Shown one piece after another: positions 52,300 through 61,916 of a stretch of 64,000 bases of DNA. This DNA is from Acidobacteriota bacterium. Lineage in GTDB: Bacteria > Acidobacteriota > Thermoanaerobaculia > Gp7-AA8 > JAHWKK01. The DNA lies in the NCBI GenBank assembly GCA_019347945.1, contig JAHWKK010000014.1:1-64000 (forward strand). Direction: 5' to 3'. The stretch's first letter is position 1; each line of letters begins with the position of its first letter. The notes beneath the pieces are model-generated. The model had not been told where the DNA came from, ran no database searches, and saw only the letters and a program-made list of their open reading frames with translations. A program made the translations under genes and the position numbers.

Positions 52300-53928
52300 T
52301 CAGGCGTCCCCGGGCGGACGTTGCCTCCCGACCGTCTCGGCACAGGCCAGCCGAGCGTCCCGGATGCGGCGGCCAGCATCCTCCAGAACCGGTGCGCTCG
52401 CCGAGATCTGCTCTTCGAGCCGTGAGAGCGCCAGCCGCAGCTCGCCGAGTCTGCCGCTGGCGGAAGCGACGACGTCCTCCTGATTGCGGAGATTTCCGGA
52501 CACCGCGTCCCTGCGGCCGGAGAGTGCGGCGAGCGCTTCCATCGCACGCTCGAACGCCGGACCCTCTGCTTTCCCCTCCGTCACGATTGCCTGCAGCGAC
52601 CTCGACCGTCGCTCGATCTCTTCCATCTCGCCGGAAGCATCGCGAGCTGATTGCGTGGCATGTCGCAGCTCTCGCTCGAGCTCCGCGATCGTCGCCGCGG
52701 TCCTCGACCGCGTCGTTTCGAGCTGTTCGATCTCGTCTCGGGTGATCGTTTCGATCCGCCGCCACTGGTCGATCATCACCTCGTGACCGCGCACCTCGGA
52801 GGTCATGCGCCGGTGGCGATCTTCTTCCTGACGGATCGTGAGCCACGTGGTGCGGCACCATTCCTCGAAGCGGAGAGGATCGATCGGCCGGCCGTTGTCC
52901 GAGCGCTCGGCCGCGGGCAGGTAAGCATCGAAAAGGCCGCGCTCCCACTCGTCGTGGAGGCTGTGCAGCTCTTCGGAGTAGTAGACCGCGACGCTTCTCG
53001 GCTGAAAGAGCTTGAGGATGAGGAGCCCCAGGAAGAGAAAGGCGAGAAAGGCGCGGACCGCAATCTCGGCTCTGTTGAACTGCGGATTCGAGAGGAGCCC
53101 TTCGAGTACGATGCCGCTGGAGTTGATCCCGGGGGAGAGGAGTTGGATACCGTAACGGTTTCCGAGCTCGGCCGGGGAGAGAGCGTCGAACCGTTCGAGT
53201 GCGGCGGCTCGCGCAGTCTCCGCGGCGGCGAGCTGTTCGCGCGTTTCTGCGAGTTGGCGCTCGATGGTTTCGAGAGCGGGTCCGCGGCCGTAGCGGCCCG
53301 AGGGACCGACGCCGGCTGCCTCGGCGACGCGCTCTCGTTCGAGTGTCGCCACGTTCCGGCGGAGCTCGGCGATGCGGGCGGCGTGGGTCTGGTCGAGCCC
53401 GGCTCTCGTCGACGCAATCATCGCCGAGTTGCGCCTCGTCATCTCGTCACGGACGTCGCCCGCGAAGATGGCCTGCGCCAGAAAGGGTGCCGTAATGAGG
53501 AGAGATGCGGTGACGATGGCGATCCTTCCGGCCACGCCTCCAGCGAGCTTCAGCCGTTCGCGCCGCTGGTCGATCGCCGGATCTTCGTCAGCTCGCGTGT
53601 AGCGGCCTCTCGCGGTGTCGAGCGTCATGAAACTCACGTCGACGATCCAGATCAGCACGAAGATGAATGCTCCCGCCACCGCGGCAGTCAGCCATGGTTG
53701 CCTTGCCGAGATCAGCCATCCCATGTATCCCCACGCGAGGCCCTCGGCCGTTGCCATCGCGAGAATCAGCAGTCGCGCACAGAAGATCCAGAAATCCGCG
53801 CTTCGCGTCAGCAGCTCGTCGCCGAACGGCTTGAGCGACAGGATGCGCGCGAGGCCGCTCGAGGGACGCGGCGATACGGCGAGCTCGGAGGAGGAGAGGG
53901 CGGAAACACCTTCGGCATAGTCGGTCAT
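52300..53928 (-). CDS. DUF4407 membrane protein with coiled coil
   Basis: A 542-residue protein: four helices (FWIFCARLLILAMATAEGLA; LTAAVAGAFIFVLIWIVDVS; GRIAIVTASLLITAPFLAQA; IAVRAFLAFLFLGLLILKLF) with SADFWIFCARL and WIVDVSFMTLD typical of DUF4407, a long coiled coil between helices three and four, and a second coiled coil through the C-terminus. The ATG at 53928 is preferred to a TTG at 53961. The family is uncharacterised; the topology suggests a membrane-anchored scaffold. Confidence 0.88.
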   Translation of the reverse strand: MTDYAEGVSALSSSELAVSPRPSSGLARILSLKPFGDELLTRSADFWIFCARLLILAMATAEGLAWGYMGWLISARQPWLTAAVAGAFIFVLIWIVDVSFMTLDTARGRYTRADEDPAIDQRRERLKLAGGVAGRIAIVTASLLITAPFLAQAIFAGDVRDEMTRRNSAMIASTRAGLDQTHAARIAELRRNVATLERERVAEAAGVGPSGRYGRGPALETIERQLAETREQLAAAETARAAALERFDALSPAELGNRYGIQLLSPGINSSGIVLEGLLSNPQFNRAEIAVRAFLAFLFLGLLILKLFQPRSVAVYYSEELHSLHDEWERGLFDAYLPAAERSDNGRPIDPLRFEEWCRTTWLTIRQEEDRHRRMTSEVRGHEVMIDQWRRIETITRDEIEQLETTRSRTAATIAELERELRHATQSARDASGEMEEIERRSRSLQAIVTEGKAEGPAFERAMEALAALSGRRDAVSGNLRNQEDVVASASGRLGELRLALSRLEEQISASAPVLEDAGRRIRDARLACAETVGRQRPPGDA

Positions 53929-54043
53929 CGCGGCTGGCACGAGTGGAGTGCCTTCCACCAATTACGCGCACGGCGGAAAGATGTTTACAAAGGGGGGCGC
54001 GGAGGCGGGGTCGAGAGGGCCTGTACCGCGGGGCGGTTTCCCG

Positions 54044-55279
54044 TTACTCGTATCGGAGCGCTTCGATCGGGTCGAGCTTCGCGGCCCGGTTCGCCGGATA
54101 GATGCCGGAGATGACACCGACCGAGATGGAGACGCCGGTCGAGAGAAGGATGGAGGCCGGAGTGATCACGGTAGGCCAGCCGGCCGAGGCGGCGACCAGT
54201 TGCGCGATGATGATGCCGGCGAGGATTCCGGTCAGTCCGCCGAGCAGACTGATCGAGAAGGACTCGATGACGAACTGGCGCTGGATGTCCTTCCGCGTCG
54301 CGCCGATCGCGCGCCGCACACCGATCTCGCGCGTCCGCTCGAGCACGGTCGCGAGCATGATGTTCATGATCCCGATGCCGCCGACCAGCAGCGAGATCCC
54401 TGCGATCGATCCCATGACGATGTTGAAGATCCGCTGGGTGCTCCGGCTCTGCTCGAGCAGAGCCTCCGGGACGACGATCTCGAAATCGTCGACGCCTCCG
54501 TGGAGCCGCGAAATGAGCGGCTGCATTGCGGCGGCGGCGCGAGTCGCCGACGAGCCCGGCTCGAGCCGGACGATGATCTCGTCGACAGGCGCTTCGAGAG
54601 GATCGCGCGCGAATTTGCGAAGCGCGGTCGAGGCCGGGATCAGAATCTCCCGTGAGGGGGAGGCGATGGCGACTCCTTCGATCTCTTCACTCGTTCCCGC
54701 GGGAGGTGCGAGCACGCCGATCACCTGGAACCAGATGTCATTGACCTTGACGAGCTTTCCGACGGGCGGGGCGTCGCCGAAGAGGTCGCGTGCGATCTCC
54801 GCTCCGACGACGGCGACCTGAGCGTGTGATTCTTCATCGCGCCGGTCGATGAAGCGTCCCGCGGCGAGGTCGACTGTCGAAGTCTCCGGCTGACGCCACG
54901 AGACTCCGAAGACCTTCCCCTGCGCCCGGCCGTTTTCCGATCCGATTCGCCAGGTCTCGACACCGACTCTCGGCAGAACGCCGGAGACTTCTTCGAGTGC
55001 CTGACTGATGGCCTCGGCGTCCCGCATCGAGACGCCGAGCGAATTCTTCCGGATCTCGTCCCTCATCTCGGGTTCGATCTGTTTCGCCCGGATGATCACG
55101 TTGTCGAGTCCGAGCCGGCTGATCATCTCGAGCGCTTCACGCTCGCCACCGGCGCCGATCGAAAGCATGGCGATGACCGCGCCGACGCCGAAGATCATTC
55201 CGAGCATCGTGAGGATCGTGCGGAGCTTGTGGCGGTTGAGGTTGGCGAGCGACTCGCGGAACGATTCGAGAAAGTTCAA
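54044..55279 (-). CDS. FtsX/MacB-type ABC transporter permease
   Basis: A 411-residue permease: N-terminal NLNRHKLRTILTMLGMIFGV with the first helix, a periplasmic MacB core domain (residues ~50-280), then IAGISLLVGGIGIMNIMLAT, RTREIGVRRAIGATRKDIQR (the coupling segment) and two more helices ending PANRAAKLDPIEALRYE. There is no ATPase domain, so a separate MacB-like nucleotide-binding protein is needed; none is in the operon. The TTG start overlaps the adaptor stop by TTGA and has GGAGGA five bases upstream. Confidence 0.93.
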   Translation of the reverse strand: MNFLESFRESLANLNRHKLRTILTMLGMIFGVGAVIAMLSIGAGGEREALEMISRLGLDNVIIRAKQIEPEMRDEIRKNSLGVSMRDAEAISQALEEVSGVLPRVGVETWRIGSENGRAQGKVFGVSWRQPETSTVDLAAGRFIDRRDEESHAQVAVVGAEIARDLFGDAPPVGKLVKVNDIWFQVIGVLAPPAGTSEEIEGVAIASPSREILIPASTALRKFARDPLEAPVDEIIVRLEPGSSATRAAAAMQPLISRLHGGVDDFEIVVPEALLEQSRSTQRIFNIVMGSIAGISLLVGGIGIMNIMLATVLERTREIGVRRAIGATRKDIQRQFVIESFSISLLGGLTGILAGIIIAQLVAASAGWPTVITPASILLSTGVSISVGVISGIYPANRAAKLDPIEALRYE

Positions 55280-56532
55280 CTCGTTCCTCCGTCACCTGCT
55301 GCTTCATCTCCCTCGATCTCCCGCTCCTCGATTCCGCTGAGCACGACGAGATCGCCTTCGTCGAGTCCCGAGGTGACGACCACGCGGCCGAGAGAAGCGG
55401 CGCCGGTCTGGATCTCGGCAGGGACGAATTTCCCGCCGCGTTCGACGTGGACGAATCTCCGGCCATCCCGGTCCCAGACGGCCTGGCGGGGAACGGTGAC
55501 CACGTCGTCGAGCTCTTCGATGGTGATCTTCGCAGAGACGCGGGCGCCGGGCTTCATCGCCTCGGGCTCGGTCGCGGCGAACGACACGATCACTCCGAAG
55601 TACTGGACGGGGACGCCGCGCACTCTGGGGCGAGCGACTGAATCGACGCGCTTGACCTCGCCCCTGAACGTCCGGTTCGGGACCGAGTCGATCCGCACCT
55701 CCGCGGTCTGCCCCACGGAGACGCCGCCGGCATCGGCTTCGAGGATGAAGATCTCGGCCTCCATCGAATCGATGTCGGGGATCTCGGCGATCGGACGTCC
55801 CGGGAAGACGGAGGAGCCGACCGTCGGGAGCTCACCTCGCCAGTCGCGCTGAAAGATGACGATGCCGGGATGCGGCGCGATGATCTCGAGCGCTTCGAGG
55901 CCCCGTCTTGCGCGATCGAGCTTCGTGTCCGCGGTTCGCTGCTCGATTCGGAGCATCTCCCGTTCCGCTTCCGTGATCGAGCCGCGGACGCCGAGCATGT
56001 CTTCTGCGTACTCCCGCCTTTCGAGCGCGAGATCGCTGTCGATCATCGATTCGATCACCTCATGACGGGAGAAGATGTCTGCGTCGGTCACTTCGAACTT
56101 CTGAGCCGCGTCGTACTCCCGCTGTGCCTGGGAGGCGTCACGACGAAGGTTGCTGCTGGTTGCGCCGGAGCTCTCGAGTGCCGCTGAAAAGCGGTTGTCG
56201 ATCGACTGGCGGTCGACACCGGCGGCTGCGAGCTCGTTCTCGAAGTCGGTTGGATCGAAGCGCACGATGACGTCGCCCTCCCGGACGTAGGAGCCATCCT
56301 TTTCGAGCCACGCGATCTTCAGACCCCCCGGAGCGTCTCGCGGAGCAGCCAGCGGTGTGGAGGCACTCGCCTTGAGATACCCCTCCGCGGTGACCGTCCT
56401 GATGAACTTTCCCTTCTGGACCCGGAGAGTCGAGACTTCGTCCTGTTGCGCTCCGGCGGCGCCGATGAGGATCACGACGGCGATCGCGATTGCAACCGCA
56501 GCGGCCGCTATCCAGTTCTTTCTTCTCGACAT
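55276..56532 (-). CDS. HlyD/MacA-type periplasmic adaptor (third of three)
   Basis: A 418-residue membrane-fusion protein: TM anchor (WIAAAAVAIAIAVVILIGAA), RTVTAEGYLKASASTPLAAP barrel-sandwich half, coiled-coil hairpin (residues ~115-215), and beta-barrel domain with VSVGQTAEVRIDSVPNRTFR and DDVVTVPRQAVWDRDGRRFV. The ATG at 56532 overlaps the previous stop as TGATG. It sits directly before the permease, as MacA does. Confidence 0.9.
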   Translation of the reverse strand: MSRRKNWIAAAAVAIAIAVVILIGAAGAQQDEVSTLRVQKGKFIRTVTAEGYLKASASTPLAAPRDAPGGLKIAWLEKDGSYVREGDVIVRFDPTDFENELAAAGVDRQSIDNRFSAALESSGATSSNLRRDASQAQREYDAAQKFEVTDADIFSRHEVIESMIDSDLALERREYAEDMLGVRGSITEAEREMLRIEQRTADTKLDRARRGLEALEIIAPHPGIVIFQRDWRGELPTVGSSVFPGRPIAEIPDIDSMEAEIFILEADAGGVSVGQTAEVRIDSVPNRTFRGEVKRVDSVARPRVRGVPVQYFGVIVSFAATEPEAMKPGARVSAKITIEELDDVVTVPRQAVWDRDGRRFVHVERGGKFVPAEIQTGAASLGRVVVTSGLDEGDLVVLSGIEEREIEGDEAAGDGGTS

Positions 56533-57764
56533 CAATCCTCTTCCGATTCCCCGGCCACGAGGACTTCATCGTTGAGCGAGAGTCCCGAAATGATCTCGAC
56601 CCGGGTGTCGTTCGACCGGCCGATCTCGACCGGGGTCTCCTCGATCGATAACATTGTTCTCCGGGTGACGACCGGACCATCCTCGCGAATGGTCACCGCG
56701 GACACCGGGATGGTCAGAACGTTCTCCGCGCGGCCCAGCTCGATCAGACCGCGGAACCGCATGCCGGGCCGCATCGTCTCCCGGTCGATCTCGGGGAGCT
56801 CGATCTCGACGTCGAGCACCTTGAGCGGGCTGACATCGGAGACCCTGATCGCGTTACCGATACTGCGGACGACGCCGATGATCTCGTTTTCCGGATGGGC
56901 GTCGAGGCGGAACCGCACCTGCTGTCCGATCTCCACCTTTCCGCTGTCGGCCTCGTCGATCTCTCCCTCGGCGTGAAGCGAGTCGAGGTCGGGAAGCTCG
57001 AGGATCTTGTCCATTCGCCAAACCTGATCGCCGACTTTCTTCTTCTCGTTACGGCGATCGGCGAGATAGACGACAGTGCCCGCGCGCGGCGCGCGGATCG
57101 TCAATCGCTGAAGGTTCTCTTCAATCTCTCTGACGCTGGCCAGATCCTGATCACGCTTGCTCTCGAGAGAGCGGATCTGGGATATGGCGGCCCTTTCGAG
57201 CGCCGCGTTTTTCGTCCTGATGTACTCGATCTCCTTCTTCGCGATCGCGAAATCGACCTGGTATTGTTCGCGCTCCCGGACTCCGATGAGCTCGTCGGGT
57301 GCCTCGAGCTTCAGCTCCGCCTTTCTCGCTCGCGATTCCGCCTCGGCAAGCTTCAGCTCGTTGTCCTCCTTGCGAAGTCTGAGATCCGCCGTGGTCTTGT
57401 CGATCTCCGCCTGCGCCGAATCGGCCCGGGACTGACGGTCGCGCAACATGTCCTGAAGCCTTTGCGTATCGAAGGCGAGGATCGGCTGACCCTTTGTGAC
57501 CTCCGACCCTTCGGGCGCCATCATTGCGATCTTGAAATCCCAGAAGTTCGTCAGTGGCGGGGGCCCGATCGTGACCGACGACGTCGAGACCAGCGAGCCG
57601 GTGATCTCGACTCCGGTCACGAGATCGCCCCGCGTCACCCTGACCCATTCGCCGGCGTTGCGGGCGGCGATCCGGTTCTGGGCGAATGCGACACCGAAGC
57701 CGAGAACGGCGATGATCGCGATCACTAGCAGAGCGTTGCGCGCGAGGGGTTTTTTGATCGTCAC
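56532..57764 (-). CDS. HlyD/MacA-type periplasmic adaptor (second of three)
   Basis: A 410-residue membrane-fusion protein: TM (ARNALLVIAIIAVLGFGVAF), RVTRGDLVTGVEITGSLVST, a long hairpin with AQAEIDKTTADLRLRKEDNE, LTIRAPRAGTVVYLADRRNE, and the barrel segment VEIGQQVRFRLDAHPENEII. The GTG at 57764 overlaps the upstream stop by GTGA; earlier ATGs in frame are within the upstream gene and unconserved. Paralogous to its two neighbours but clearly divergent in sequence. Confidence 0.9.
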   Translation of the reverse strand: MTIKKPLARNALLVIAIIAVLGFGVAFAQNRIAARNAGEWVRVTRGDLVTGVEITGSLVSTSSVTIGPPPLTNFWDFKIAMMAPEGSEVTKGQPILAFDTQRLQDMLRDRQSRADSAQAEIDKTTADLRLRKEDNELKLAEAESRARKAELKLEAPDELIGVREREQYQVDFAIAKKEIEYIRTKNAALERAAISQIRSLESKRDQDLASVREIEENLQRLTIRAPRAGTVVYLADRRNEKKKVGDQVWRMDKILELPDLDSLHAEGEIDEADSGKVEIGQQVRFRLDAHPENEIIGVVRSIGNAIRVSDVSPLKVLDVEIELPEIDRETMRPGMRFRGLIELGRAENVLTIPVSAVTIREDGPVVTRRTMLSIEETPVEIGRSNDTRVEIISGLSLNDEVLVAGESEED

Positions 57765-58981
57765 GATCCGGTTTCCTCGATCAGAGACTTCGCCATCGCG
57801 ACGCGCGTTCCCTCCTCGAGCGACCCCTCGACTGCGCATTCGGTCGCATTGCATGCGACCACCGAGGTGGGTTCGCTCGTACCGTCGGTGAGGCGAACCG
57901 CGGGGGTATCACCGCTGAAGTCGAGCGCGTAGCGGGGAACGATCAGGGTGTTCTCGATCCTCGCGGTCTCGACATCGACCCGCGCGCTCAGTCCGGGCCG
58001 GATTCCCTCAGGCAGCTCTTCGTCGAGAGTGACCACGACCTGGAAGAAGCGGCGGAGCGAAGTTCCCCCCTCTTCCTCGGCCACCGGGCTTACCCGGCTG
58101 ATCCGCCCCGGCATCCGCCGATCCGGCCAGGCATCCAGGGTCACCAGCGCCGGCATCCCCTGAACGACTTTGCGATCGTCGACATCTGCCAGCCGCGCGT
58201 GGATCTCGAGAGTCGAAAGGTCCGGGATCCGTGCGATCACGAATCCTACCCACGCCATGTCACCGACCTCGATTTTCTTGCCATGCCACGGATGGTTGTT
58301 GATCACGAACAGACCGTCGGCGGGGGCGGTCAGAGTCATCGTCTCGACCGCCTGATGCGCGATTCCCACCTGGCGACGGGCTTCGGCGAGCTCGAGTCTG
58401 ATGTTGTCGATCTCGGTTCTCTGTGCGTGCCTGGTCGCCTCCAGCAGAGTCTTCGCTTTCTCGAACTCCGTCCTCGCTCTGTCGAGCGCGAGCTGGCGCT
58501 CGTCGTACTCCTTGACCGAGATGATCTCGGGTGGGATCTCGGCATCGAGCTTCGCCTTGTCGAGGTCCGCCTTCTTTTTCAGGTAGTCGAGCTCTTTGTC
58601 TGCGATCTCGGCCCGAGCCTCCTCGGTCTTCTGGAGGAGCTGCTCCCCCTTTTCGAGCTCGGTCCGCTCGATCTCATCGAGCCGGCTCGCGAATGAGGAG
58701 GTATCAAGCTCGACGAGCCGCGCTCCTTTCATGACTCTGGCCCCATCCTGTTCGATCCACTGGATCGTCGTTCGCCATTCGGGTAGCGGAGGAACCACGA
58801 TTGGCTCGGCAATCTCGGCATCGACCTCCCCGGTGAGGACCATCCGCTCGACGAACGTCCCCTTCCTGACGACCGGCTCGTTCCGAAGGTCGACATGAGT
58901 CGCTCGCTCACTGGTACAGCCGAAGGCGGCGAGCAATAGGGCGAAGATGTGTCCGAGGTTTGCTTTTCTCATCGGTTTCAT
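57761..58981 (-). CDS. HlyD-type adaptor lipoprotein (first of three)
   Basis: A 406-residue membrane-fusion protein that is a predicted lipoprotein: IFALLLAAFGCTSERATHVD has the lipobox AAFGC. It has ERMVLTGEVDAEIAEPIVVP, the hairpin with LEKGEQLLQKTEEARAEIAD, LTAPADGLFVINNHPWHGKK and barrel VVQGMPALVTLDAWPDRRMP. Unlike the next two adaptors it is lipid-anchored rather than TM-anchored. An ATG three codons later (58972) could also start it. First gene of the four-gene operon. Confidence 0.9.
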   Translation of the reverse strand: MKPMRKANLGHIFALLLAAFGCTSERATHVDLRNEPVVRKGTFVERMVLTGEVDAEIAEPIVVPPLPEWRTTIQWIEQDGARVMKGARLVELDTSSFASRLDEIERTELEKGEQLLQKTEEARAEIADKELDYLKKKADLDKAKLDAEIPPEIISVKEYDERQLALDRARTEFEKAKTLLEATRHAQRTEIDNIRLELAEARRQVGIAHQAVETMTLTAPADGLFVINNHPWHGKKIEVGDMAWVGFVIARIPDLSTLEIHARLADVDDRKVVQGMPALVTLDAWPDRRMPGRISRVSPVAEEEGGTSLRRFFQVVVTLDEELPEGIRPGLSARVDVETARIENTLIVPRYALDFSGDTPAVRLTDGTSEPTSVVACNATECAVEGSLEEGTRVAMAKSLIEETGS

Positions 58982-59184
58982 TCAAATAGACGACGACGGC
59001 CCTCGCAATGTTCCGATCGAAAAAATAATTCAACTGATGGAGACGAATCTGGGTCAATCCGATTACGATGAGCCGGGCCGGGCCTGAAAACCGGGAGTTC
59101 GGCTCCGAAATCGTCGGAACGCCGTCTGCTTCCGGCGCTGAGCTCCAGGCTCGAGGGCGGCCCCGTCCGTTAGGCTGAGAGACG

Positions 59185-59928
59185 ATGGCTCGACGAATCG
59201 CCAGCAGGAAGGCTCGGGAATCATTCGACAGGATCCGGCAGCTGGATCGCTCCGCGCTGAGGTCTTTCGTCGATGAGACCATGGCCACGATGATCGAGGA
59301 AGAGGCACTCGCCGTCCTCGACAATCCCTGGTGCGACTCGAGTATCGCTTCGCGAATCGCCCAGTCCGATCTGACGTCCCGTCGCGCAATCCGCTACGCG
59401 CTGGTCAGTCACCGGCAGACGCCGCAGGGGCACGCGATGAAGTTCGTTCATCATCTCGACTGGCAGGAGCTGCTCCGCCTCTCCACCAACGTTCGTGTGA
59501 ACCCATCGATCCGCCGATCCATCGACGAGCAGATGCGAATCCGGCTGAGAAAGATCACTGCCGGGGAGAAGGTTGCGGCGTCGAAATTCTGTTCGCAGGC
59601 GATCATCCTGGAGCTCTGCCACGACCCGGACATCAGAATCTTCCGGGGCCTGCTGATCAATCAGAGAATGACCGAGGACATCCTGCTGCAGACGATCCTT
59701 TCCGAGATTTTGACCGGAGAGCAGATGGCGGAGATTCTGAACAACGACCGGTGGAAATTCCGGCTGCCGCTGTTGCGGGCGCTGGTGAAAAGTCCCAGCG
59801 CGCCCCGCGCAGTGGCGGCGTCCTGTCTGCCCAGGCTGCCGCGGGCTGACATCGAGGAGATCGCCGGGAACCCTGGCACGCCCGTCTATCTTCGCCGTTG
59901 CATCGAGCGGCTGGAACTGCTCGACTGA
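59185..59928 (+). CDS. helical-repeat protein of unknown function
   Basis: A 247-residue, probably all-alpha protein; the spacing of Leu/Ile-rich helices (EEEALAVLDNPWCDSSIASR; RGLLINQRMTEDILLQTILS) suggests HEAT-like repeats. Its C-terminus, NDRWKFRLPLLRALVKSPSA then PRAVAASCLPRLPRADIEEI, is similar to the end of the protein at 60816-61916 (NREWMRKYPIMMSLIKNPKA; PPGVVLPLVNRLTLRDLKGL). The two appear to share a domain. It is 73 bp from the RodZ-like gene and likely in the same operon. Confidence 0.75.
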   Translation: MARRIASRKARESFDRIRQLDRSALRSFVDETMATMIEEEALAVLDNPWCDSSIASRIAQSDLTSRRAIRYALVSHRQTPQGHAMKFVHHLDWQELLRLSTNVRVNPSIRRSIDEQMRIRLRKITAGEKVAASKFCSQAIILELCHDPDIRIFRGLLINQRMTEDILLQTILSEILTGEQMAEILNNDRWKFRLPLLRALVKSPSAPRAVAASCLPRLPRADIEEIAGNPGTPVYLRRCIERLELLD

Positions 59929-60001: not shown

Positions 60002-60823
60002 ATGCCGGACGATGCCGTGAATGTCAGCGACGAAAGAGAGCCCCTGGCCGAGCTCGGGGCGGATTTCCAGCGGGAGAGAGAGGCCAGAGGTGTCACCCTG
60101 CGGGAAATCGCGGATACCACGAAGATCAGCTCCCGTTTCCTGGAAGCAATCGAGCGGGGGGATGCAACGGTCCTCCCGGCGCCGGTGTTCACGCGAGGGT
60201 TCATCCGGGAGTACGCCCAATATCTGGGGCTCGACGTGGAAGCAATGGTCGAACGGTACATGGCGCAGGTTCAGCTCGACGAACGGCGCGAGGCGGAATC
60301 GGAGGCAGAGCTCCAGGAGCGAATTCGCGGGGGACTGCCTCTGATCGGTGGCAAGGGCCTGGTCCGGACGGTGATCATCGTGATCGTGATCGGACTCATC
60401 CTCGGGGTGATCGCCTGGATGGCCTCGAGCCGAGTTGAAGATTCGCCGGCGGAGGCGACCGGGGCCCCTCCGGCGCCGGTCGTGCCGCCGGCCAGGACGG
60501 CAACCGCCGAGCCCGAGCCGGTGGTAATCGATTCGGTGGAGGTCACGGTTCGCGCGACGGAGCCGACCTGGATGCTGGTTGCTGTCGACGGGAACGCCAC
60601 AGAGGAGATGACGCTGGGACCAGGAGAGACCCGCACCTTTCGCGGCTCGGAGAACGTGACCTTCGAGCGGCTCGGAAACGCAGGAGGCATCCAGGTCTCG
60701 CTCAATGGCGTCGAGCTCGATCCGCTCGGGCGGTCGGGTCAGATCGTCAATGACGTCAGTTTTGGCATCGAGGATGCGAGGCGTACAGTTGAGCGAGGAG
60801 GCTCTGACCTGGACGATGAGTGA
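60002..60823 (+). CDS. rodZ: RodZ-like helix-turn-helix membrane protein
   Basis: A 273-residue protein with the RodZ plan: N-terminal HTH_25 (ADFQREREARGVTLREIADT; SSRFLEAIERGDATVLPAPV; FTRGFIREYAQYLGLDVEAM), one TM helix (VRTVIIVIVIGLILGVIAWM), a Pro-rich linker and a C-terminal DUF4115 domain (VEVTVRATEPTWMLVAVDGN; LGPGETRTFRGSENVTF; VSLNGVELDPLG). RodZ couples MreB to the cell-wall machinery. The gene symbol is by architecture. A GTG eight codons earlier (59978) is an alternative start. The stop overlaps the next gene by 8 bases. Confidence 0.85.
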   Translation: MPDDAVNVSDEREPLAELGADFQREREARGVTLREIADTTKISSRFLEAIERGDATVLPAPVFTRGFIREYAQYLGLDVEAMVERYMAQVQLDERREAESEAELQERIRGGLPLIGGKGLVRTVIIVIVIGLILGVIAWMASSRVEDSPAEATGAPPAPVVPPARTATAEPEPVVIDSVEVTVRATEPTWMLVAVDGNATEEMTLGPGETRTFRGSENVTFERLGNAGGIQVSLNGVELDPLGRSGQIVNDVSFGIEDARRTVERGGSDLDDE

Positions 60824-61916
60824 ACTTCTCGGTTCCTCACCTGAACAACTGAAAGCGCGCATTCTGAGTGACGAGGCACCGGAGGACTTCCAGATGCTCG
60901 TCGCGCGGGGATTTCTTCCTGTGGCGCAGGAAGACATGATCCCGATTCTCATCCACCTGGGACGGAGTCCGAACGAATCGATTGCGAAGCAGGCGCGCTC
61001 TTCACTGGGGGAAGCGCCACGAGGGTCGATTCAGTCATTCGCCGAAGATGAGTCCTCGCCTCCCGCGGTGCTCGGGGATCTCGCCGTGGTCACAGAGGAT
61101 CGGGCGGTACTGGAGAAACTCGTCCGGAACCGTGCGACGCCGGCGGAAGCGATTTCCTCGCTGGCCCGAAAGGCGGACGCGAGACTTCAGGAAGCAATCG
61201 TGACCAACCAGAGGAGGATTCTCGAGCAGCCGGAAATTCTGGAAAGCCTCGAAGCGAATCCGAGTCTGACCGGCGACACGAAACGGAGGATCCGGGAGTT
61301 CCGGGAAGAGTTTTTCGAGAAAGAGCAGGCTCGCCGGGATGCGCGCGAGAGGCGTGCGGCCGAGGAGGCGGAGCTCGCTGCCGAAGCCCAGAGGGAGCTC
61401 GACGAGATTCTCGCAAAGGTCGAGGATGATCGCCCGAAGGAGGAGACGCTCCAGGGGGCTCCGCCGGGAGTTTCCGAGGCCACCGAAGATGATCCGGACG
61501 AGAACCTTTCCGCCTGGGTTCGTATCCTGAAAATGAGCGTCTCGGAACGAGTTCGGACGGCGTTCAAAGCGGGCAAAACCGAAAGGACCATTCTGATCCG
61601 CGATCGGAACCGGCTCGTCTGCACGGCCGTGATCAGGAGCCCCCGCATCACCGAGACGGAGGTCGAGGCCTACGCAGCAATGCGGAACATCGATGGTGAG
61701 GTTCTGCGGCTGATCGGGATGAACCGGGAATGGATGAGAAAGTATCCGATTATGATGTCGCTGATCAAGAATCCGAAGGCTCCGCCCGGAGTTGTGTTGC
61801 CTCTCGTCAATCGCTTAACCTTAAGAGACCTGAAGGGTCTCAGTACCGATAAGGGCGTGCCCGACGTGATTCGTGTGAGTGCGCGACGTCTGTTCAATCA
61901 GAAAACGAGAAAATGA
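60816..61916 (+). CDS. helical-repeat protein with charged coiled coil
   Basis: A 366-residue cytoplasmic protein: N-terminal helical repeats (FQMLVARGFLPVAQEDMIPI; LEKLVRNRATPAEAISSLAR; EQPEILESLEANPSLTGDTK), a highly charged coiled coil (KEQARRDARERRAAEEAELA), an acidic linker, and a second helical block whose end matches the protein at 59185-59928. Unknown family, though similar proteins occur beside RodZ and PP2C genes in related genomes in my recollection. Coupled at both ends (8-base overlap in, ATGA out). Confidence 0.78.
   Translation: MSELLGSSPEQLKARILSDEAPEDFQMLVARGFLPVAQEDMIPILIHLGRSPNESIAKQARSSLGEAPRGSIQSFAEDESSPPAVLGDLAVVTEDRAVLEKLVRNRATPAEAISSLARKADARLQEAIVTNQRRILEQPEILESLEANPSLTGDTKRRIREFREEFFEKEQARRDARERRAAEEAELAAEAQRELDEILAKVEDDRPKEETLQGAPPGVSEATEDDPDENLSAWVRILKMSVSERVRTAFKAGKTERTILIRDRNRLVCTAVIRSPRITETEVEAYAAMRNIDGEVLRLIGMNREWMRKYPIMMSLIKNPKAPPGVVLPLVNRLTLRDLKGLSTDKGVPDVIRVSARRLFNQKTRK

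Follow-up and report, generated by a model that had tools for sequence, protein, structure and literature searches.

We analyzed a window of 64,000 nucleotides from the genome of an Acidobacteriota bacterium (assembly GCA_019347945.1, contig JAHWKK010000014.1, positions 1 to 64,000), in which a minus-strand operon encodes three membrane-fusion adaptors, hereafter A1, A2 and A3, followed by PM, a MacB-type permease with no ATPase domain. Comparison of genomes indicates that this trio is an old set, and that each of its adaptors has orthologs at the same position in Acidobacteriota, Aminicenantes and Pseudomonadota. We consider it somewhat probable that the three adaptors form a mixed (A1A2A3)2 ring on a PM dimer, and that the ATPase and TolC are supplied in trans from a TolC-Yip1 locus to give an exporter resembling MacAB-TolC.

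In this proposal, the operon would encode the periplasmic and membrane parts of a MacAB-TolC-like (Type VII) ATP-binding cassette (ABC) exporter. The adaptors would co-assemble into one six-membered ring containing each of them twice, with A1 beside A2. The order A1-A2-A3-A1-A2-A3 would offer identical surfaces to both permease halves, fitting a two-fold PM dimer, and the hairpin tips of the ring would dock on a TolC-type outer-membrane channel. PM would retain its ATPase-coupling surface and be driven by a separate MacB/LolD-type ATPase. In the window genome and in most of its relatives within the class, this ATPase and TolC would come in trans, from a locus of the form TolC-Yip1-(adaptor)-ATPase-(permease). 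We infer the ring, its stoichiometry, the trans partnership and the direction of export from genomes.

The operon and the age of the trio

The operon runs from position 58981 to 54044 in the order A1, A2, A3, PM. A1 (57761..58981, 406 residues) is a putative lipoprotein, while A2 (56532..57764, 410 residues, with a GTG start at 57764) and A3 (55276..56532, 418 residues) each have an N-terminal transmembrane anchor. PM (54044..55279, 411 residues) begins with TTG. Consecutive genes overlap throughout: A1 and A2 by the four bases of GTGA (57764-57761), A2 and A3 by one base within TGATG (56534-56530), and A3 and PM by the four bases of TTGA (55279-55276). An alternative, longer A2 frame begins with the ATG at 57854 and overlaps A1.

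All three adaptors score above the Pfam cut-offs for HlyD_3 and HlyD_D23, and PM matches MacB_PCD (PF12704, 134.6 bits; cut-off 27) and FtsX (PF02687, 86.6 bits; cut-off 25.5). Pfam returned no ABC_tran match in the 411 residues of PM; an ATPase domain is absent from all four proteins, and no ATPase gene adjoins the operon in the window. Among the NCBIfam models, the cut-off of the general adaptor model RND_mfp is passed by A3 only (114 bits against 94.9). The equivalog models score well below their cut-offs, with 22, 72 and 46 bits for A1, A2 and A3 against 342 for MacA, and 184 bits for PM against 966 for MacB. The best PDB sequence match of PM is MacB (5gko/5lil). Coordinates, frames and Pfam matches therefore agree with the original prediction, made from the window alone, of three adaptors coupled to an FtsX-type permease through these overlaps. 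Its description of the adaptors as mutually divergent also holds, as they share 26-29% identity with one another. The lipobox AAFGC of A1, the adaptor that it calls a lipoprotein, is atypical, but several A1 orthologs have an N-terminal cysteine after small residues.

To see how far the trio extends, we read its presence from the loci in a first set of 60 relatives and found it in 27 of them. Among these 60 genomes, the trios of G050 and G056 are split over contigs, and G002 has an A1 fragment only. This fragment (L055:8230-9057) is a 275-residue A1 relative that corresponds to residues 26-310 of the query. As A2, A3 and the permease are all missing from its surroundings, it is possibly a remnant. 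A survey of 395 Acidobacteriota genomes with an A3 profile returned 77 genomes that match at E 1e-72 or better; 64 were new, and we read 40 of those. The order A1-A2-A3-PM is kept in 39 of these 40 further loci, and the 40th is interrupted by a contig end. Carriers other than metagenome-assembled genomes (MAGs) include Shewanella colwelliana, S. hanedai, Duganella sp. 1411 and Proteiniphilum sp. X52.

Adaptor orthologs share 30-48% identity with the window protein of their own position, and permease orthologs share 53-66% with PM, whose nearest named relative shares 72% identity over the last 200 residues (Acidobacteria MAG 'gp7 AA10'). In a tree of 166 adaptor sequences, the window-type A1, A2 and A3 form separate clades (SH-aLRT 97, 99 and 100), each with members from Acidobacteriota, Aminicenantes, Shewanella/Psychrobium and Duganella/Lysobacterales. 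The trio genomes of these clades also cluster in the permease tree (SH-aLRT 87). When adaptors of the same genus are compared, the non-synonymous rate dN is 0.07-0.11 and the synonymous rate dS 0.54-0.73 in genus g5, and 0.27-0.29 and 0.93-1.00, respectively, in genus g2. Recent tandem duplication is ruled out by the lower identity within the locus (26-29%) than between same-position orthologs (30-48%), by the clades that follow position, and by dN well below dS. The original prediction had asked for the same trio in other genomes, where it does occur in fixed order, and had named two findings that would count against it. Of these, recent copies under no constraint are not borne out; a MacB-type ATPase next to the trio in relatives comes close, but there the ATPase is unfused.

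Probable source of the ATPase

In one of the 27 trio genomes of the first set (G040), the trio has a separate MacB-type ATPase gene beside it. So do 12 of the 40 further Acidobacteriota loci, where this gene lies after PM in four loci within the class, before A1 in seven, and after PM in G101. It also precedes A1 in six loci of Aminicenantes and Pseudomonadota (Aminicenantes, Shewanella, Psychrobium, Duganella and a Lysobacterales MAG), which in L076 and L086 means that it precedes a fused A1A2. The lack of an ATPase is thus true of the window operon but does not define the system. A check for a nearby ATPase or TolC gene, as the original prediction proposed, finds neither beside the window operon. 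Two OEP (TolC-type) genes occur elsewhere in the genome, one of them in the locus on contig C24 described below, and an OEP gene lies near the trio locus L399.

The nearest ATPase of the window genome is on contig C24, in a locus of the order OEP-Yip1-adaptor-ATPase-permease (G000, L031:2810-8459). In this locus and its relatives, which form a conserved exporter locus, a Yip1-domain membrane protein lies between TolC and the adaptor or ATPase. A Yip1 protein match was found in 52 of the 60 relatives. In G365, G242 and G398 (L444, L449 and L452), the Yip1 gene follows a MacB-like permease rather than TolC. We scored the locus only where Yip1 adjoins an OEP, adaptor or ATPase gene, because a single Yip1 query gave weak or unlinked matches in several genomes outside the class, and a Yip1 profile, which recovered real loci in two apparent exceptions (G108 and G117), returned unlinked Yip1 genes in others. 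G307, where the locus is cut by a contig end, and G125 were left out of the counts.

Within the class, the TolC-Yip1-ATPase locus is present in all 30 trio genomes with no visible ATPase of their own, that is, 26 from the first set plus G257, G312, G399 and G410; in G010 it is seen as OEP-Yip1 only, at a contig end. The five class members with an ATPase of their own beside the trio (G040, G318, G345, G360 and G393) have neither the locus nor, by single query or profile, any Yip1 (P-value 3e-6 for 30:0 against 0:5, Fisher test, uncorrected for relatedness). The contrast is sharpest inside family f12, between G257 on the one hand and G318 and G345 on the other. Outside the class, none of the eight trio genomes with their own ATPase has the locus. 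In family f4 the locus consists of TolC, Yip1 and ATPase, with no adaptor or permease, in all eight readable genomes; these two genes were either lost there or never part of it. The complementary distribution in the class supports, as most likely, that the ATPase of the trio comes from elsewhere, as had been suggested from the window alone.

Several observations weigh against the partnership that we propose. In three of the 30 genomes (G010, G013 and G015), the contig stops too early to show whether an ATPase follows PM. The complementarity counts genomes rather than independent events, and two families dominate the ATPase-less genomes of the class. The TolC-Yip1-ATPase form with no adaptor or permease also occurs in four genomes that have no trio (G023, G053, and G032 and G041 of family f10). 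Outside the class, the locus is present in only 10 of the 22 ATPase-less trio genomes, so that another ATPase must serve there. Finally, the trio-adjacent ATPases do not form a single clade, so that phylogeny singles out no ATPase of the window genome as dedicated to the trio: adjacency to the trio requires three changes on the tree, and the C24 ATPase of the window genome groups with canonical operons.

The scattered positions of the trio-adjacent ATPases, and the 12 of 22 ATPase-less genomes outside the class that show no TolC-Yip1 locus, would also fit a mixed ring that draws its ATPase from another source, such as interchangeable MacB/LolD-type ATPases, and the window genome does encode more ATPases of this kind (on C7, C2, C12 and C5). 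We regard this alternative as unlikely, since it accounts poorly for the 30 of 30 versus 0 of 5 genomes within the class and for an f4 locus that has no permease of its own. The distribution in f4 itself was set aside as proof of partnership. Six of the nine f4 genomes have the trio and the other three an ATPase-less permease-adaptor pair, with no overlap among all permease matches of about 195 bits or more (P-value 0.012, Fisher test), but the pair is not the original permease of the locus and the genomes are related. The pair, in the order permease then adaptor (L295, L317, L314 and L280), is found in the three trio-less f4 genomes and in G032 of f10, and forms its own clade in the permease tree.

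The proposed adaptor ring and its permease

A1 and A2 are fused into one open frame in three lineages: family f4 (five genomes, of which two were partially read), Duganella together with the Lysobacterales MAG, and G101. The fused f4 protein lacks both the last part of A1 and the A2 membrane anchor; in G101 both halves are almost complete. Since A1 and A2 are separate genes in G047, which also belongs to f4, the f4 fusion is independent of the one in Pseudomonadota. No A2+A3 fusion was seen among the loci read. The fused chain fits A1 and A2 as neighbors in a ring. Position-specific orthology, fixed gene order, purifying selection and the repeated A1+A2 fusions all make a mixed ring more likely than either stacked adaptors or a separate ring of each adaptor. 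Of the two arrangements offered by the original prediction, a mixed ring and successive adaptors, the first is thus the one that genome comparison favors.

In an AlphaFold2 model (mean pLDDT 87.5), A1 has one hairpin with helices at 95-147 and 156-213 (53 and 58 residues). A Foldseek search of the PDB with this model returned MacA of MacAB-TolC as best match (9qgy_G), with 5nik_D in third place. The MacA-type layout of alpha-hairpin, lipoyl, beta-barrel and membrane-proximal domains is assigned to A1 from the model and Foldseek, and to A2 and A3 from sequence only. A model of the fused A1A2 contains two full hairpins of nearly equal length (helices 102-154/163-220 and 432-484/493-551).

The hairpin tips differ by position, with P150 in A1, P156 in A2, and F146, D150, S155 and E161 in A3. 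The A3 tip is the most constrained, its four residues being invariant in 24 of 24 orthologs. Such differences, like the existence of single-adaptor relatives, would also be expected if each adaptor formed a homohexamer of its own, the three being alternatives on a shared permease with different substrates or outer-membrane partners. This arrangement seems improbable to us, because A1 and A2 are fused in three lineages and every uncut trio locus retains all three adaptors in a single order. Moreover, the C-terminal end of A1 is lost in two fusion lineages, which would prevent a normal A1 homohexamer.

Less probable still are successive or stacked adaptors, with one seated on the permease and the others extending the conduit or acting as chaperones or assembly factors. 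The unlike anchors (putative lipoprotein A1, transmembrane A2 and A3) and unlike tips are consistent with such a division of labor, as are the unequal roles of the TriABC adaptors described in excerpts of PMC13328181. Against it, modeled A1 is a full-length adaptor with one normal hairpin, neither the A1 nor the A1A2 model has an extended hairpin, and the two hairpin units of the fused model are nearly equal.

The mixed ring that we prefer has its own share of the adverse evidence. The fused model was built from six sequences and reaches a pTM of 0.55, so that its overall packing is unreliable and the packing of the A1 and A2 halves is not fixed by it. In addition, the same permease family contains a two-adaptor operon (L082) and many Bacteroidota operons with one adaptor.

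In PM, we found the major coupling-helix region between the second and third transmembrane helices (assigned by homology) to be nearly invariant. From E314 to A327, only positions 321 and 325 vary, and E314-G320, R322-A324, G326 and A327 are the same in 24 of 24 orthologs, as are R398, A399, P404 and L408 at the C-terminal end. Only one of the 24 loci in this alignment has an adjoining ATPase. Coupling helices of MacB-type transporters are described in excerpts of PMC5985334, and the invariance of these coupling-helix and C-terminal residues argues that an ATPase still acts on PM. That PM instead functions with no ATPase, as a scaffold that is passive or gated mechanically, is very improbable: ATPase genes are missing from most Acidobacteriota trio operons, and from the flanks read around many single-adaptor operons of Bacteroidota, but the coupling region is invariant, an ATPase gene adjoins many orthologous operons, and the distribution is complementary with the TolC-Yip1-ATPase locus.

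Two cysteines of A1, C377 and C382 (C-x4-C; codons 57836..57853, minus strand), are invariant in all 20 orthologs of the A1 alignment and may form a disulfide in the membrane-proximal domain. Around the operon, the intergenic region 58982..59184 separates A1 from a divergent gene at 59185 with no family match in Pfam or NCBIfam. The original prediction had proposed a search for a promoter there; a simple consensus scan, which is weak evidence, found no sigma-70-like site in it and neither such a site nor an intrinsic terminator in 53850-59300. The next gene downstream of PM encodes a DUF4407 protein on the same strand. Judged by eye, the plus-strand proteins at 59185-59928 and 60705-61916 seem to have a repeat in common, whose motif resembles K(S/N)P(S/K)AP. 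The neighbors of the trio give no consistent clue to a substrate, as the flanks vary (M16 peptidases, His-tRNA synthetase-like proteins, a glycosyltransferase, a sulfatase, radical SAM proteins and others). In three genomes of one genus, a protein with pentapeptide repeats and a TIR domain (domains read in L036 only) is encoded divergently upstream of the trio (L036:12735-13733, L037:5549-6163 and L044:8105-8725).

Adaptor number and known systems

Two further three-adaptor sets have, on the evidence of their sequences, arisen separately from the window type, and both lie outside its clades. One is in Bryobacterales and other Acidobacteriota (L072, L075, L079 and L080), with the adaptors followed by the permease; an OEP gene comes next in both of the loci tested (L072 and L079, two of the four). 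The other, in Bacteroidota (L078 and L081), consists of three adaptors, permease and ATPase, with an OEP gene in L081, the one of the two loci tested. Among the Bacteroidota loci L084-L138, many operons of a single adaptor and permease have no ATPase in the fetched flanks (at most 8 kb, some contigs being shorter), so that detachment of the ATPase may be frequent across this permease family.

These sets lead us to suggest, tentatively, a symmetry rule with a detachable motor. The six positions of an adaptor ring, divided by the order of the transporter's rotational symmetry, would set how many distinct adaptors can specialize. A three-fold resistance-nodulation-division (RND) pump would then allow two, as with TriA and TriB, and a MacB-type permease of two-fold symmetry would allow three. 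Among ABC exporters the trio would correspond to TriAB, would have evolved on three or more occasions, and would be a cartridge that either carries its ATPase or borrows it, along with TolC, from the shared TolC-Yip1-ATPase locus. By analogy, adaptor number may follow transporter symmetry because A1-A2-A3 taken twice fits both permease halves, and because a 3:(3+3):3 TriABC and fused dimeric adaptors are known from the sources excerpted below. A MacA homohexamer on a MacB dimer, by comparison, leaves a six-on-two mismatch. The natural trio and the natural A1A2 fusions would give defined ring positions, in which permease and TolC contacts can be labeled and mutated separately, and the complementary occurrence of an own ATPase and the TolC-Yip1-ATPase locus would make ATPase sharing among exporters directly testable.

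A search of open-access papers turned up RND pumps with more than one adaptor (two), but no ABC system with three. The trio pump differs from LolCDE, which has no adaptor, compared with three in the window, and whose lolCE model gives PM 46.9 bits against a cut-off of 362. The MacB homolog of the Spr0693-0695 type (5xu1) likewise has its permease as a separate polypeptide and an adaptor, but it is Gram-positive and the adaptor is single. VarACDEF of Vibrio cholerae shares a MacB-like permease, a separate ATPase subunit and a TolC-type channel, and differs in having two permease subunits and one adaptor plus VarB, a 40-residue adaptor remnant (PMC5595328, in excerpt). Two adaptor units per chain, as in A1A2, are known from DSY0927 and the engineered AcrA-AcrA (excerpts of PMC4446572), whereas the trio fusion unites two of three members, repeatedly, and always A1 with A2.

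MacAB-TolC consists of one MacB dimer, a MacA hexamer and a TolC trimer, according to excerpts of PMC5985334. It has the same MacB-type permease (periplasmic core plus FtsX) and MacA-type adaptors as the window operon. Its single adaptor, however, is described as a homohexamer, whereas the window encodes three divergent adaptors side by side. Its ATPase is fused to the permease N-terminus, whereas PM is unfused with no ATPase in the operon, and the window proteins fall far short of the equivalog cut-offs for MacA and MacB. For TriABC-OpmH of Pseudomonas aeruginosa, the consensus is shifting to a 3:(3+3):3 stoichiometry, and more than one adaptor is essential for its one transporter (PMC13328181, in excerpt). 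The window operon shares this use of several adaptors for one transporter, but where TriABC-OpmH combines two adaptors with an RND trimer, it combines three with a MacB/FtsX ABC permease that is expected to be a dimer.

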